From Alphaproteobacteria bacterium (GTDB lineage Bacteria; Pseudomonadota; Alphaproteobacteria; UBA9219): a stretch of 59,336 nt of DNA. Shown in pieces: positions 2-58,979 of this stretch (the first letter of the stretch is position 1; every line of letters starts with the position of its first letter). Location: positions 1 through 59,336 of the forward strand of contig JABDAH010000008.1 of the NCBI GenBank assembly GCA_013289265.1. Direction: 5' to 3'. The position numbers were made by a program, and so were the translations under genes. The notes under the pieces are model-generated. The model worked only from the letters and a program-made list of their open reading frames with translations. It searched no databases and was not told the origin of the DNA.

Positions 2-2368
2 ACCATTCCGGCCACAGCGGACCTGTTGGATGCTATAGCCAACATGCCTTTAGGCGCCGTGATTTTACCCGGCCTCGATCAGCAATTGAATGAAGAAGCG
101 TGGCAGGCCATAGGTCCGAGCCATCCGCAATATGGCCTCAAGAAATTATTGGAAAAATTCGAAGTTGAGCGGCGCGATGTAGGTTTATGGCAAGTATACG
201 GGCAGCAAGAGTACACGAATTCCTCCCCCCTTGAGGGGGAGGCTAGGAGGGGGGGCGATCCACAATCCGAATATGTGGAGCAAAGGATGGCCCTCTCCCC
301 TAACCCCTCCCTCGAGGGGAGAGGAATGGCACACTGTAGCTCTCGCACTTACTTGCTGCAAACCACCATGTTGCCGGCGGAAGTGACGGAGCAATGGCGC
401 CATCTGACGAGAGAGAATATTGCCAAGAATGCAGTGGAAGGCCTGGCACGGGTAGAGACCAATCACCCGCAAGAAGAAGCGCAGGTCATTGCGTTGATGA
501 TGCGGAAGGTTCTGGATACGTCAGACAAAACGGCCGCGCTCGTCACGCCTGACCGCGCTTTGGCCGAACGTGTTTGCACGATGCTTTCGCGCTGGGGAAT
601 TGCCGCAAATGACTCCGCCGGCTCTTCGCTCGCGGCGCAGCCTGTGGGCGCATTTCTGCAGGACGTATTGATGGTGGCGGCGCCGCATGCAGCATCGATA
701 GATTTTTTGTCACTACTGAAACATCCGTTGGCGGCTTGCGGACTTAATCCGTCTGAATGCAGGGCGCGCGCGAGGGAGGTTGAGATCAATGTCTGGCGCA
801 ATGAGAAACCCGAAACATCCGAATGGTTGCAACAATTGCAACAACAGCTGCAACCCATTACAGCAAGCTGGTATGAGAAACGTCCACTGCTGGACAGGCT
901 GAAAACCCATATAAAATTGGCCGAAACGTTAGCGACGACTGATATGGAAAAAGGTTCTGCGCGTTTGTGGCAGGAAGGTGCTGGCGAAGCTGCCGCCGAA
1001 TGGCTGGATGATTGGCAAAAAGCATCGCATCAATTTCCGCCGGTGACAGGGGAAGAATATGTGGGGCTATTCACCGAATTAATGCGTGCCGTAACCATTC
1101 GCCCCTCTTATGGCCAGCATCCGCGCCTGACTATTCTGGGTGCCCTGGAAGCGCGGTTGATACAGGCGGATCTGATCATTCTGGGCGGCATGAATGAGGG
1201 TGTCTGGCCACCGGAAGCGGCGATCGACCCATGGATGTCGCGCCCCATGAAGCAGGATTTCGGCCTGCCTTCGCCTGAAAGGCTGGTTGGCCTGTCAGCG
1301 CATGATTTTGTGCAGTTGGCCAGTGCGCCGGAAGTCGTTCTAACGCGTTCCAAACGGGCGGGCAGTGCCCCCACGGTGCCGTCGCGCTTTCTCCTACAGT
1401 TGGAAACAGTTCTGAAGGCCGTCGGGTATATTTCTGAAGCTGGAGATATTCTCAAACCACCAGAGCCCTGGCTGGAATGGGCGCAGCAGTTGGATGCCCC
1501 TGAAGTTCTGATCCAGATCAAGCCGCCGGAACCAAAGCCGCCTGTGGGTGCGCGGCCCAAGCAACTTTCGGTCACTGAAATCGGTACATGGCGGCGTAAC
1601 CCTTATGCGATTTATGCCAAGCATATTTTAAAACTTAGAAAATTGGGTGAACTGGAAGCGGATATTGATGCAGCGGACCGCGGCAGCATGATCCACGGCG
1701 CTTTGGATGAGTTTATAAAGAAATATCCGGATGAATTGCCAGCGAAGGCGGTTGATGAATTATTGGATGTAGGCCGCAAGATTTTCAGCGCCTTTGACCA
1801 GCATCCCGAAGTGCAGGCTTTCTGGTGGCCGCGTTTCGAGCGTATAGCTGCATGGTTTATCGAGCATGAGACGGAACGCAGGGACAGCGGCATAAAAATT
1901 CTGCAGGCCGAAGCCGACGGCAAAATGAGGCTCGGTGATTTTACGCTCAAAGGCCGTGCCGACCGCATCGACCAAATGCCGGGTGGTGGCCTGTCGATCA
2001 CGGATTACAAAACCGGCGGCGTACCGACGCAGAAGGAAATCAAGGCCGGGTTCGAGCCACAATTGCCTTTGCTGGCGCTGATTGCTGAAAAGGGTGGGTT
2101 TAAAAATATCCCGTCTCAGGCAACATCCGAGCTAGCCTATTGGAAACTAAGTGGCGGCCGGGTTGTGGCGGAAGAAAAACCGGTTGATGGGGATGTCGCC
2201 GAATTAATGCAGCAAGCGGCAGCCGGGCTGGAGCGATTAATTGAATTGTTCAGCAAGGCCGCTACGCCTTATCAGGCGGTTCCCAAACCGCAATATCAGC
2301 CGCGTTACGATGACTACGCACACCTGGCGCGGCTGGCTGAATGGGGCCGCACAGGAGGTGAGGAATGA
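2..2368 (+). CDS. addB: Double-strand break repair protein AddB, 5' end cut by window edge
   Basis: AddB is the non-motor nuclease subunit of the AddAB helicase-nuclease, which resects double-strand breaks for RecA loading (family knowledge). The frame is open from base 2, so the true start lies upstream; family members run to about 1000 residues and 789 codons are present here. The C-terminal RecB-like nuclease domain is clear: DRGSMIHGALDEF near nt 1676, then GRADRID and SITDYKTG near nt 1950-2010, which supply the metal-binding acids. The stop overlaps the addA start by 4 bases, so the two are translationally coupled. Odd feature: nt 219-330 are a palindromic repeat read in frame (residues such as SSPLEGEARRGGD and ALSPNPSLEGRG), with no counterpart that I recall in the family. 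The frame stays open through it, so the protein is probably still made. Confidence 0.93.
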   Translation, partial: TIPATADLLDAIANMPLGAVILPGLDQQLNEEAWQAIGPSHPQYGLKKLLEKFEVERRDVGLWQVYGQQEYTNSSPLEGEARRGGDPQSEYVEQRMALSPNPSLEGRGMAHCSSRTYLLQTTMLPAEVTEQWRHLTRENIAKNAVEGLARVETNHPQEEAQVIALMMRKVLDTSDKTAALVTPDRALAERVCTMLSRWGIAANDSAGSSLAAQPVGAFLQDVLMVAAPHAASIDFLSLLKHPLAACGLNPSECRARAREVEINVWRNEKPETSEWLQQLQQQLQPITASWYEKRPLLDRLKTHIKLAETLATTDMEKGSARLWQEGAGEAAAEWLDDWQKASHQFPPVTGEEYVGLFTELMRAVTIRPSYGQHPRLTILGALEARLIQADLIILGGMNEGVWPPEAAIDPWMSRPMKQDFGLPSPERLVGLSAHDFVQLASAPEVVLTRSKRAGSAPTVPSRFLLQLETVLKAVGYISEAGDILKPPEPWLEWAQQLDAPEVLIQIKPPEPKPPVGARPKQLSVTEIGTWRRNPYAIYAKHILKLRKLGELEADIDAADRGSMIHGALDEFIKKYPDELPAKAVDELLDVGRKIFSAFDQHPEVQAFWWPRFERIAAWFIEHETERRDSGIKILQAEADGKMRLGDFTLKGRADRIDQMPGGGLSITDYKTGGVPTQKEIKAGFEPQLPLLALIAEKGGFKNIPSQATSELAYWKLSGGRVVAEEKPVDGDVAELMQQAAAGLERLIELFSKAATPYQAVPKPQYQPRYDDYAHLARLAEWGRTGGEE
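219..330. repeat. G/C-rich palindromic element inserted in frame within addB
   Basis: Two G/C-rich hairpins, about nt 220-256 (CCTCCCCCCTTGAGGGGGAGG core) and nt 291-324 (CTCCCTCGAGGGGAG core), flank a small middle hairpin (TCCACA/TGTGGA, nt 260-280). The two outer blocks are also complementary to each other, so the whole unit can fold as one nested palindrome. The outer blocks match those at 11819-11943 and 18241-18367; the middle differs. It adds roughly 37 codons with no stop in the addB frame. I infer an element insertion; the exact ends need a comparison with an uninterrupted addB. Confidence 0.8.
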
Positions 2369-10789: not shown

Positions 10790-11857
10790 ATGCTTGTTCT
10801 AGGGCTTGAAACCAGTTGCGATGAAACGGCGGTCGGCATTGTCTCGAACGGCGGTGGGCAACGTATTCTTGCGAATATTGTGGCATCGCAGCTGGAAGAA
10901 CACCGCCCTTATGGCGGTGTGGTGCCGGAAATCGCGGCGCGCGCGCATCTGGATTATATCGATGATCTCCTGCGTCAGGCGCTTGATGTCGCAGGTATAC
11001 AGTTAAAGGATTTATCCGGCATCGCTGCGACCTGTGGTCCCGGCCTTATCGGCGGTGTGATGGTGGGCGCGATGATGGGCAAAGCCATAGCTGCCGTGCG
11101 CAATCTGCCCTTCATGGCCGTCAATCATCTGGAAGCGCATGCGCTGACGGCGCGCCTTTCAAACGATGTGGCGTTTCCTTACCTGCTGCTTTTGGTATCC
11201 GGCGGACATTGTCAGTTGCTTTTGGTGCGCGGTGTCGGTGATTACCGGCGCCTCGGCACCACGATTGATGATGCTGTCGGTGAATGTTTTGATAAATCGG
11301 CAAAATTGCTTGGCCTTGGTTATCCCGGTGGGCCGATGCTGGAACACGCCGCGCGTCAAGGCGATGCCAAGGCATTTCCTTTGCCGCGCCCCATGCTGGG
11401 GCGCGAGGGGTGCGACTTCTCATTCTCCGGCTTGAAAACGGCAGTGCGGCAGTTGGTCGCGGCTCACCCGGATTTGGCGCCTGCTTTCACTGCTGATGCG
11501 GCTGCCAGCCTGCAAGCGGCGATAGCTGATATTCTCTATGATCGCACCCGCAACGCTTTGCAGATACTTAGCGATGAAAATCAAAAGGTAACGGCTCTGG
11601 TTGTTGCAGGCGGCGTAGCGGCCAACCTTGCCATCCGGACAAAATTGACGGAACTAACGGCGTCGCATCACCTGTCCTTTATTGCGCCGCCAATGGAGCT
11701 ATGCACCGATAATGGTGTTATGGTTGCATGGGCAGGGCTGGAGCGTTTAAAACTGGGCCTGACAGACGGGCTGGATTTCGCTTCACGCCCACGCTGGCCG
11801 TTGGACGAAACTATTATTCCTTCCCCCTCGCGGGGAGGGCTAGGGAGGGGGGCGTGA
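10790..11857 (+). CDS. tsaD: tRNA N6-adenosine threonylcarbamoyltransferase TsaD
   Basis: Transfers the threonylcarbamoyl group to A37 of ANN-decoding tRNAs, acting with TsaB and TsaE. The N-terminus [15 protein letters not shown] and metal ligands H113 and H117 in NHLEAHAL identify it, as do [13 protein letters not shown] and the C-terminal VAGGVAAN and [11 protein letters not shown]. The length of 355 residues is normal. The final residues ([12 protein letters not shown]) are encoded by a palindromic repeat beginning near nt 11819, so the native C-terminus has probably been replaced or extended. The conserved core ends before this point, so function is likely kept. gpsA follows 98 bases downstream. 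Confidence 0.96.
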
Positions 11858-11943
11858 AGCAAGAAGCCCCCTCACCTGCAAAAACTAAAGACTTAGCTGA
11901 AGCTAAGTCTAAGTTTTTGCTTCCTCTCCCTCAAGGGGAGAGG
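11819..11943. repeat. G/C-rich palindromic element across the tsaD 3' end
   Basis: Left G/C hairpin about 11820-11852, inner 43-bp palindrome 11878-11920 (GCAAAAACT at one end, AAGTTTTTGC at the other), right hairpin 11923-11943 (CCTCTCCCTCAAGGGGAGAGG). It shares outer blocks with the addB copy and nearly its whole length with the copy at 18241. It covers the tsaD stop codon and ends 12 bases before the gpsA start, so it also forms the tsaD-gpsA spacer. Confidence 0.88.
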
Positions 11944-15450: not shown

Positions 15451-15476
15451 TCTCCTCTCCCTCAAGGGGGAAGGGA
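15451..15476. repeat. Fragment of the G/C-rich palindromic element
   Basis: CTCTCCCTCAAGGGGGAAGGG matches the right hairpin of the elements at 11923-11943 and 18345-18367 with small changes. The left hairpin and inner palindrome are missing. It lies directly after the rod-like gene and may serve as a weak terminator between convergent genes. Confidence 0.6.
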
Positions 15477-18237: not shown

Positions 18238-18240
18238 AGA

Positions 18241-18367
18241 ATTCCCCTCCCCTTGCGGGAGGGGTTAGGGGGGCTCGCTAAACAAGAAACCCCCTCACCT
18301 GCAAAAACTACGGGCTTAGCTAAAGCTAAACCCAAGTTTTTGCTTCCTCTCCCTCAAAGGGAGAGGA
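18241..18367. repeat. G/C-rich palindromic element downstream of the methyltransferase gene
   Basis: Left hairpin about 18243-18275 (CCCCTCCCCTTGCGGGAGGGG), inner 43-bp palindrome 18301-18343, right hairpin about 18346-18367 (CCTCTCCCTCAAAGGGAGAGG). The layout equals the copy at 11819-11943. Within the inner stem two A-T pairs of that copy are G-C pairs here, with one C-A mismatch, so pairing is mostly conserved. It begins 3 bases after the methyltransferase stop and could act as terminator or mRNA stabiliser. Confidence 0.88.
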
Positions 18368-18445
18368 ACTTACTCCATTTTAACCGGATTTTAGGGGGAA
18401 GAAACGAAGCTGAAGTGACAACTATATAAGGTCAGACCTGCCGCA

Positions 18446-25264: not shown

Positions 25265-25321
25265 GGGAGGGTTCGTTCTAAAGCCAAGAAAGCGGAAGGC
25301 CCCACATTGGCCGGTGGCTAT

Positions 25322-25480
25322 ACTATCCTCCATGGCCTGCATAAGCAGGTGGGCGCCATATAACCAAACCACGGTCTGGTCAGGGACAGCTCCCTAGGAG
25401 TTCTAATTATCGGCCCTGGGGATTTGATGCCTATCGCACCACGCAGAAACCTTCCAAGAGGTACTTTAAGCTTTGGTGGC
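25322..25480 (-). ncRNA. ssrS: Probable 6S RNA (approximate ends)
   Basis: Called from synteny and structure. It lies between zapA and the cyclo-ligase gene, where ssrS sits in many proteobacteria. On the reverse strand an internal hairpin has CTCC-TA-GGAG at its tip (plus-strand AGCTCCCTAGGAGT near 25389), closed by CAGGG/CCCTG, then an outer stem pairs GGTGCGATA with TATGGCGCCC. A CCTGC-TTAT-GCAGG hairpin follows near the 3' end. 6S RNA binds the sigma70 RNA polymerase holoenzyme in stationary phase. Ends are estimates within about 15 bases. Confidence 0.62.
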
Positions 25481-49619: not shown

Positions 49620-49753
49620 GGGGTTGAGGCTTGGGGTTTAGGGTTCGGACGGGCTTGATAACATAGTCATTATTGGCAAGAAAGAAGATGTTCTTTTCTA
49701 GGATGTTGACATCTTCTCGCTATCTGAACCCTAAACCCCAAGCCCCAGCCCCC
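49620..49753. repeat. Imperfect inverted-repeat element between hisS and the ATPase pair
   Basis: The left arm 49620-49649 (GGCTTGGGGTTTAGGGTTC core) pairs with the right arm 49723-49753 (GAACCCTAAACCCCAAGCC core) over about 30 bases with three or four mismatches. An inner stem AGAAGATGT/ACATCTTCT (49683-49691, 49709-49717) sits in the middle. It is MITE-like and unrelated to the other three palindromes. Its position, in the gap between two divergent genes, could place it in their regulatory region. The rest of this 257-base gap is A/T-rich and holds the likely ribosome binding site CGGAG of the first ATPase. Confidence 0.75.
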
Positions 49754-55442: not shown

Positions 55443-58355
55443 ATGAACGAGCCGAAAAAAGCCGATTACCGCGACACCGTGTTTCTGCCGAAAACCGACT
55501 TCCCGATGCGGGGCAGCCTACCGCAGAAGGAACCGGAGTTGCTGGCGCGCTGGAAGGATATGAATCTCTACAATCGCCTGCGCGAGCAAAGCAAAGGCCG
55601 CGAGAAATTTATCCTGCATGACGGCCCGCCTTATGCGAATGGTAATATTCATATCGGCCATGCTCTCAATAAAATTCTGAAAGATGTCGTTGTGCGCAGC
55701 TACCAGATGCTGGGCTTTGACGCGCCTTACGTGCCGGGTTGGGATTGTCATGGCCTGCCGATCGAATGGAAGATCGAAGAACAGTACCGCGCCAAGGGCA
55801 AAGACAAGGACGAAGTGCCGAAGTTGCAATTCCGCGCCGAATGCCGCGCCTTCGCCCAGCACTGGAAAGATATCCAGTCGGAGGAGTTCCAGCGCCTCGG
55901 CGTGCTCGGTGACTGGCCGCATCCTTATTTGACGATGACCAAGAAAGCCGAAGCGCAGATCCTGCGCGAGATTCATAAATTTCTGCAAAATGGCTTGCTC
56001 TATAAAGGCGTGAAACCTGTCATGTGGTCAGTGGTTGAAAAGACCGCTTTGGCCGAAGCTGAAATCGAATATCAGGATCACAAATCCACCACGCTTTGGG
56101 TGAAGTTTCCGGTTATCAAATCCGCCAATAAAGCTTTGGAGGGTGCCAGCGTCGTTATCTGGACGACAACACCTTGGACTATTCCGGCTAACCGCGCTGT
56201 TGCTTTTGGTGATTTTGCCTATGCCGTTATTCAGGTCGAAGAATTGGCTGAGGGTGGCCTCGCTAAGATCGGGGAGAAGCTGGTTGTTGCCGAAAGCTTG
56301 ATTGACCAATTCTGCAAGGACACGAAAACCACGCGTGTTACAAAAATTGCGACGCTGCAGCAGAGTGATTTAACCGGCGCAGTCGCACATCATCCCTTCC
56401 GTGGTCGCGCTGGATCTGAAGATTATTTCGATTATGACGTGCCGCTCTATTTCGGTGACTTCGTTACGACCGATGCTGGCACCGGTTTTGTGCATATCGC
56501 GCCAGGTCATGGCGAGGACGATTTCAATCTCGGCCAGAAATACAAGATCGAGTTTAAAGATACCGTTGGTGATGATGGACGCTATTTACCTAACGTCAAA
56601 GGTTTCGAAGGGCTTTACGTGTATAAGCCCGATGGCAAGGTCGGCGAAGCTAATGGCGCTGTTATCAAGGCATTGCTGGAAGCAAATGCGCTGCTGGCAA
56701 AATTGAACATCACACACAGCTATCCGCATTCGTGGCGTTCAAAAGCACCGCTGATTTTCCGCACCACGCCGCAATGGTTCATCGCGATGGATGAAAAGCC
56801 TGTGGGCAAGGACAAAACCCTACGCGAGCTTGCAATGCAGGCGATTGGCGATACGCAGTGGTATCCGGAAATTGGCGAGAACCGTATCCGTGGCATGATC
56901 GAAAGCCGTCCCGACTGGTGCATCAGCCGTCAACGCGCCTGGGGCGTGCCGATCGCCTTATTCGTTCACAAAACAACCGGTGAAGTGCTGAAGGATAAAG
57001 CGGTTCTGGACCGCATCACGGCGTCATTCGATGCCGAAGGTGCTGACGCTTGGTATAGTCACAAACCGGAAGACTTCCTCGGTAGTGGTTATAAAGCGGA
57101 TGATTACCATCAGGTCTTCGATATCGTCGATGTCTGGTTTGAATCAGGTTCCACCCATAGTTTTTGCCTCAATCAGGAATTAGGCAATGAATGGCCTGAA
57201 TTGAAATGGCCGGCTTCGCTGTACCTCGAAGGTTCTGACCAGCATCGTGGCTGGTTCCATTCTTCATTGCTGGAATCGTGTGGCACTACGGGCCGTGCGC
57301 CTTATGATAAGGTGCTGACTCACGGCTTTTCGCTCGATGAGCAGGGACGCAAAATGTCGAAATCGATCGGCAATGTCGTCGCCCCTCAGGAAGTGTATGA
57401 GAAGATGGGCGCGGATATTCTGCGTTTGTGGGTGGTAGCTTCCGATTATACGCAGGATTTGCGTATTGGTCCGGATATTCTGAAACAGATGGGCGACCTC
57501 TACCGCCGCTTCCGCAATACACTACGCTATTTGCTTGGTGCTCTGGATGGTATGAGTGCGGCGGAGCATGTGGATCATGCGCAGCTGCCGGAGCTGGAGC
57601 AATGGGCACTGCATCGCTTGCATGAAATGGATCAGATCATCAGGGCGGACATCCAGAAATTTGACTTCAACCATATGCTGCAGAGCCTGCATGATTTCTG
57701 CAATGCGGATCTATCGGCTTTCTATTTCGATGTACGCAAGGACAGCCTCTATTGCGACAAACCGAATGAATTGCGCCGCAAGGCTTCGCGCACGGTGCTG
57801 GAACTTATCTTCAATCACCTGACGGCGTGGCTGGCGCCCTTCCTCTGCTTTACCGCAGAAGAAGCCTATCTGATGCGGAATGGCAATGAGGGCAGCCTCC
57901 ATCTGCAGGCTTTCCCGGATGTGCGCAAAGAGTGGCGGAACGATAGCTTGGGTAAAAAATGGCAGGACATCCGTCTTGTTCGTCGCATCGTAACGGGGCA
58001 ACTGGAAGCAGCAAGAATGTCAAAGAAAATTGGCTCCAGCTTGGAAGCTCACCCCGTTATTTATGTGTCGCCGAAGATTAAAGATCTCTTGCAATCCATA
58101 GATTTTGCTGAGGTTTGCATTACTTCTGATTTAACCGTCATGCCTCATGAAGACGTAAAGGATGTAACAACCAAAACGCAGATATGGTCGGATTCTCCTG
58201 ATGCTATCTATTTTGATGATATTTCTCTAGCCAAAGGCATGAAATGCGAACGCTGCTGGCAGGTCCTGCCGGAAGTGGGTAGTCATGCGGATTGCCCCGA
58301 CCTTTGTAATCGGTGTCATGATGCCGTGACCCATATCAGGAAAGCGGCCGCATGA
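55443..58355 (+). CDS. ileS: Isoleucine-tRNA ligase
   Basis: A class I synthetase of 970 residues. HIGH at residues 70-73 ([12 protein letters not shown]), the editing domain with [22 protein letters not shown] at 637-641 ([10 protein letters not shown]), and C-terminal zinc knuckle CERCW...CPDLCNRC. The bacterial-type zinc site suggests the standard IleS1. The stop overlaps lspA by 4 bases. Confidence 0.97.
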
Positions 58356-58828
58356 TCATCCACCGTCGCTTTAACATTGCCATCTATCTGCTGGCACTTA
58401 TCACTATGTGTGACCAGCTCAGCAAATGGTGGGTACTGAACGAGGCCATGCGCCCGCCGCACACTATGCCGGTGACCAGTTTCCTGAATATCGTTCTGGT
58501 CTGGAACAAGGGTGTGACTTTCGGCTTCTTCAGCCATTTTGATCATCATCTGATGGCCTATTTCCTGATCGCCGTTGCTGCCATCATCCTGTTTCTGCTA
58601 GGGCGCTGGCTCTGGCGGACATCATCGACTTTGGTCGCGGTAGCTCTTGGGGCGGTCATGGGCGGCGCCATCGGTAACGTTATCGACCGTATAAGATACG
58701 GCGCGGTGGTTGATTTTCTGGATTTCTATTACCAAAACTACCACTGGTACGCCTTTAACATAGCCGATGCCGCTATCGTAACCGGAGTCGGGCTGCTGCT
58801 GCTGGATAGTCTGGTCAGGGGCAAGTAA
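58352..58828 (+). CDS. lspA: Lipoprotein signal peptidase
   Basis: An inner-membrane aspartic protease that cleaves prolipoprotein signal peptides. A 158-residue protein with four hydrophobic spans. The NKGVTFGFF motif, [19 protein letters not shown] with Asp124 and NIADAAI with Asp139 are the catalytic features. It overlaps ileS by 4 bases, a common alphaproteobacterial order. The lipoprotein gene at 59040 is a plausible client. Confidence 0.95.
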
Positions 58829-58835
58829 AAAGGCC

Positions 58836-58979
58836 GGGCATGCCCCAATTGCGTGAACTTGGCCTGCAAACCGCGCTTTTTTGTTCTTTCGCTGCTCACG
58901 TACAGAATAGTACGCTGCGCAGCGAAAGAACAAAAAATCACGATTTTCGTCTCAAGTTGACGCAATTAAGGACACGCCC
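58836..58979. repeat. Nested palindromic element after lspA
   Basis: Outer arms: GGGCATGCCCCAATTGCGTG side (from 58836) against the complement ending at 58979, 27 bases with few mismatches. Inner arms: TTTTTTGTTCTTTCGCTGC at 58877-58895 and its exact complement at 58919-58937. The loop holds GTAC twice. The 144-bp unit can fold as a long stem with a bulge. It separates lspA and the lipoprotein gene and may terminate the ileS-lspA transcript. Confidence 0.78.

Follow-up and report, generated by a model that had tools for sequence, protein, structure and literature searches.

The segment at positions 218 to 327 on the forward strand is very probably an insertion, within a permissive linker of AddB, of a palindromic element that is dispersed and non-autonomous and resembles BIMEs or MITEs. 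The element is built from two inverted stem-loop units and a variable middle that joins them. Five observations form the basis of this reading: repeats of the element occur at other loci, the orthologous sites are mostly empty, the addB frame reads through the insert, further in-frame cases exist, and differing elements occur at the addB site. AddB most likely functions with an additional loop, predicted to be disordered, of some 37 residues or slightly more.

The window, i.e. the whole stretch of 59,336 nucleotides that was analyzed, is contig C8 of a 1.49-Mb MAG of an uncultured alphaproteobacterium that is 64% complete. This genome is designated G000; G001 is its genus-mate, and G006, G007, G010 and G020 are relatives. 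Judged by addB matches, the nearest cultured organism is Azospirillum. The addB gene, encoding a double-strand-break repair nuclease/helicase subunit, lies at 2 to 2368 on the forward strand and was recognized by the NCBIfam model addB_alphas (TIGR02786, E 2.4e-224) and by a PDDEXK_1 Pfam domain. Its visible frame comprises 788 codons and is stop-free, with the 5′ end cut off by the contig end, and an addA-like frame follows from 2365. Elsewhere in the window a 6S RNA was found on the reverse strand at 25295-25452 (Rfam RF00013, 65.8 bits). A G-rich inverted repeat with 30-nt arms 73 nt apart is present at 49620-49752, flanked by a hisS-like gene and a gene for a GspE/PilT-like ATPase. Another long palindrome at 58845-58969 (−59.2 kcal/mol as RNA, shuffle z −10) is unlike the elements described below. 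It separates a signal-peptidase-II-like gene (58352-58828) from a lipoprotein-like gene, and a search of the G000 genome for a second copy found none.

The addB element and its copies in the genome

The element in addB, which we call F1 type, spans 110 nt (AATTCCTCCCCCCTTGAGGGGGAGG...CCCCTCCCTCGAGGGGAGAGGAAT), and its outer boundary is uncertain by as much as about 20 nt at either end. The addB frame translates it without a stop as NSSPLEGEARRGGDPQSEYVEQRMALSPNPSLEGRGM (residues 73-109), and the insert includes the peptide NSSPLEGEARRGGDPQSEYVEQR.... Its G/C content is 61% versus 55% in the remaining addB. The left terminal stem-loop at 222-242 reads CCTCCCCC-cttga-GGGGGAGG and is followed by a CTAGG tag. 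The right one, at 303-327 with the stem-loop itself at about 303-324, is inverted with respect to the left one and is preceded by a CCCCTA tag; both are on the forward strand. Folded as RNA, positions 218-327 reached −74.8 kcal/mol against a mean of −48.1 for dinucleotide shuffles (z −7.1), and as DNA −29.9 against −21.0 (z −3.4); none of 200 shuffles folded as well. The initial annotation had described a palindromic element of about 37 residues in frame inside addB, and both the folding and the open frame bear this out. It had also proposed two hairpins joined by a third. Both terminal stem-loops indeed exist, but the lowest-energy fold is a single long imperfect hairpin spanning the whole element. 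An Rfam search gave no match at 218-327.

DNA copies of the element were found at other loci of G000, as the initial annotation had suggested looking for. Near-full-length F1 copies are present on contigs C32 (86% identity), C12 (78%) and C3 (71%), over about 106-114 nt. A related type, D1, is about 128 bp long compared with about 110 bp for F1; the left stem-loop is common to both, whereas the middle (CCCCTCACCTGCAAAAACT...AGTTTTTGC) and the right unit differ. Together the two types amount to about 17 copies in the partial 1.49-Mb genome, a count from similarity searches in which diverged copies may be missed. A pattern search with the exact stem returned one site only. The majority of the G000 copies are intergenic or at gene ends. 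Two full D1 copies lie within the window on the forward strand, and further D1 copies occur elsewhere in G000. The copy at 11818-11943 lies in the space that separates tsaD from the following gene and extends into the 3′ end of tsaD, whose last codons and stop it provides (the frame ends at 11857); the copy at 18240-18369, detected by D1 similarity search, is intergenic. Copies across a gene end and outside genes had been noted at 11819 and 18241 before, and both are real, although they belong to the D1 type and not to the F1 type of addB. A lone terminal stem-loop unit occurs at 15453-15474 on the forward strand, directly after an apparent gene end. The terminal units of the F1 copies are inverted with a spacer between them, which is a BIME-like organization. 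In G006, single units are repeated in close pairs and arrays, also BIME-like. On contig C13 of G000 (L075), a large protein with a GTA/phage head spike fibre domain has an element copy at its N-terminus.

Occupied and empty sites in conserved genes

The proposed comparison of addB across relatives was carried out by orthologue alignment. A short linker alone was present at the site in 21 of 24 orthologues, and G000 carries the insert. Within the set there was no near-identical genome with an empty addB site. In 44 of 46 alphaproteobacterial loci the HPQ-to-RPA span is 42-53 aa; the two exceptions, at 71 and 94 aa, are L010 and L013, which both bear an element. Since diverged copies occur in the genome and 21 of the 24 orthologues have only the short linker, the segment is better read as a dispersed element than as a native loop, and the proposal of an inserted element survives this comparison.

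Besides addB, three G000 genes carry in-frame interior elements. In ubiG a D1 element lies between VEDLAR and YDMI, at a site that is empty in all 23 relatives compared. In tilS a D1 element precedes the FIVDH strand, and the site is empty in relatives. In recG an F1-like element separates the ERA..LL helix from GLVHGRM; the site is empty in most relatives, and G001, G006 and G007 also have inserts. Such interior insertions were accepted on the basis of orthologue alignment or of family models matching on both sides. In G001, trmFO and an ogt-like gene are interrupted in frame by D1 and a 2OG-Fe dioxygenase gene by an F1-like element. Two genera other than that of G000 contribute pdxA of G007, with an in-frame F1-like element, and uvrA of G010 (L290), with a double D1-like insert, in frame and about 63 residues long, at a site that is empty in 17 relatives. 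A family model matches on both flanks of the insert, or extends across it, in trmFO, the dioxygenase, pdxA and uvrA; in the ogt-like gene the match is confined to the downstream domain. Copies at the starts of ftsW, yidD and the genes for an SH3 protein, a fibre protein and a GPP34-like protein were left out of the insertion count because the true start possibly lies further downstream. Four of the nine insertion-bearing genes are repair genes (addB, recG, uvrA and the ogt-like gene), a proportion that is striking at first sight, but with so few cases and no measured background we do not claim an enrichment.

AlphaFold models were compatible with the inserts being tolerated loops, a prediction that concerns the fold, activity aside. 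In the AddB model, residues 61-112 had pLDDT values below 50, from a shallow alignment of 13. The UbiG model with its insert kept the methyltransferase fold at a mean pLDDT of 86, with the insert itself at low confidence, and its best PDB matches were the UbiG structures 4kdc, 5dpm and 4kdr.

The addB and recG sites are occupied by differing elements in different genomes. At the addB site G000 carries F1 and G001 carries D1 into which a hairpin is nested; G007 retains a decayed remnant and G020 half an element. A refinement of the main reading is that each of the two sites goes back to a single ancestral insertion whose descendants diverged by recombination, as opposed to repeated independent insertion into a hot spot; we give this about an even chance. 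The addB inserts of G000, G001 and G007 all open with a left unit of one kind and one orientation, and these three genomes form one clade in the addB tree (support 0.987), which makes a single ancestral insertion, later replaced, plausible. Likewise, the recG inserts of G000, G006 and G007 have the left unit, place and orientation in common, and those of G000 and G007 additionally share part of the middle. Against a single event at each site, however, G020 stands apart in the addB tree, nested in a clade that is insert-free, the recG insert of G001 is a different repeat, and G006 falls outside the grouping of G000 with G007 in the recG tree.

Unit tags and the search for a mobilizer

The dominant tag of the units is CTAA/CTAG (TTAG/CTAG on the opposite strand), on stems of the CCCCTCCC/CCTCCCCC type. 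Counted on both strands, GTAG was found on 0 of 198 units, so that the GTAG at the stem foot which defines the GTAG superfamily is absent. A CGTC tag was found on 6 of 198 units, a count in which TGTC and CCTC variants and the tail are not listed separately, and the units do not fit the CGTC superfamily, which is characterized by a CGTC tag (or its TGTC and CCTC variants), by AT pairs where the stem begins and by a CCA tail. These counts bear on the possibility of a typical REP that is mobilized by a RAYT, a Y1 tyrosine transposase. The two inverted stem-loops with a short linker do resemble a BIME, units are paired in G006, and Y1_Tnp genes were found in 8 of the 23 genomes searched. Nevertheless we consider this origin unlikely: besides the missing GTAG tag, no Y1_Tnp gene was found in the incomplete genomes G000 (64%) and G001 (69%), and none of 17 Y1 loci in relatives had element stem-loops in the flanks examined.

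The flanks of 30 copies, compared without a near-identical empty site, gave no consistent target-site duplication. The 10-mer GCAGCAAGAG occurs just outside three G000 copies, at addB (L001), tilS (L070) and an intergenic locus (L003), and could reflect either a target preference or an extended end of the element. A AAGAGCGGTG-like sequence lies outside some other copies. Overall the F1/D1 element looks non-autonomous.

Frame survival and relation to known elements

Of the six possible frames of D1, one is open in each of four copies tested and none in two degenerate copies, and every D1 insertion in a gene uses one and the same frame (SPAKTKDLLRKSKFLLPLPQGER). In the F1 copy in addB four of six frames are open, and with this type an open frame is thus not unlikely. 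In leuB of G007 (L039), near a contig end, the frame ends inside an element copy and no frame continues; this seems to be a truncation or a chimeric contig end. If leuB is truncated, the frame is not kept by every genic copy. The single used frame of D1 and the more permissive F1 fit survivorship, in which incompatible insertions are lost. The initial annotation had suggested that the frame was selected to survive, which is best retained in this sense of survivorship rather than of adaptive value.

The four open frames of the addB copy and the apparent truncation of leuB could also be taken to mean that addB is inactivated or being inactivated, as a pseudogene in progress whose open frame is a coincidence of G/C-rich, stop-poor sequence. 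This is improbable given that the 788-codon frame is otherwise intact and matches its family model at the E-value quoted above, that in-frame insertions also occur in ubiG, tilS and recG, which are normally important genes, that the sole open D1 frame is always the one used, and that inserts at the addB and recG sites have open frames across genera. That the segment is a native, variable AddB loop of G/C-rich low complexity, palindromic by chance, is scarcely credible: the linker does vary in length across Alphaproteobacteria (the 42-53 aa span given above), but the DNA copies at unrelated loci, the related elements in ubiG, tilS, recG and other genes, the folding far beyond shuffles and the 21 insert-free orthologues all speak against it.

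For the inserted element we propose the following course of events. Insertions would fall into and out of genes, and those that break a gene would be purged by selection. Insertions that keep the frame and lie in surface loops would persist as near-neutral additions to the protein. At an occupied site, elements with a common left unit may later be replaced by recombination or by nested insertion.

In-frame insertions of REP, RPE, WPE and MITE elements have been published (PMC3733652, PMC2229807, PMC3767692, PMC10969869). The statement in the initial annotation that no such case was known for this sequence is thus fair for the F1/D1 family and does not extend to the phenomenon. In Rickettsia and Wolbachia palindromes occur in frame in genes, and orthologues may carry different element groups at one locus (PMC3767692, PMC2229807); as cited in PMC2229807, the Rickettsia gmk enzyme with an insert is still active. 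The F1 and D1 elements resemble RPE and WPE, which are palindromes of about 100-150 bp with a long stem-loop, dispersed within and between genes, in frame in conserved genes and of different groups at the same orthologous locus (PMC2229807, PMC3767692, PMC10969869). F1 and D1 are palindromic repeats in this size range, dispersed in about 17 copies, and lie in frame in addB, ubiG, tilS and recG, and in other genes of relatives, at sites that are empty in related genomes. They differ in their G/C-rich stems and, as far as addB shows, in lineage. By analogy the element would work like an RPE, as the initial annotation had anticipated, and the several in-frame copies in conserved genes agree with this. 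The likeness drawn here is one of behavior, and we therefore do not file the element as an RPE.

REPs and BIMEs share the 8-bp stems, 5-nt loops, inverted dimers and in-frame intragenic copies. Intragenic in-frame GTAG and CGTC REPs have been described, many of them in DNA repair genes such as uvrA, recB and uvrB, including a pair of recB insertions whose sites roughly coincide (PMC3733652). The element described here differs by its CTAA/CTAG tag, and a link to a Y1 transposase was not found. MITEs such as Correia/NEMIS, ERIC/RU-1 and QMITE are similar in their length of about 107-130 bp, inverted ends, non-autonomous nature and open frames fused in frame with host genes (PMC2229807, PMC10969869), whereas a target-site duplication was not identified for the element here. 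Work on Rickettsia, Wolbachia and REPs had thus already described palindromes that are translated in frame, turnover at one site and elements within repair genes. What is new for this known phenomenon is an uncultured host lineage and an element family with a CTAA/CTAG tag instead of GTAG or CGTC.

A broader and rather doubtful extension would be that a few loops of conserved proteins, chiefly of repair enzymes (addB, recG, uvrA), are long-lived landing sites where one element family succeeds another, with the frame kept, for as long as genera last. They might then be a standing source of new protein segments, possibly gaining by modulating the repair enzymes that they entered. The present results extend protein-coding palindromes to an uncultured alphaproteobacterial family, with several clear in-frame cases and empty-site controls. 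They support two published but little-tested points, the turnover of differing elements at the same site and the frequency of such elements in DNA-repair genes. For the annotation of such genomes they also serve as a warning, since a stretch of about 37-65 extra residues in a core protein can be mobile DNA.
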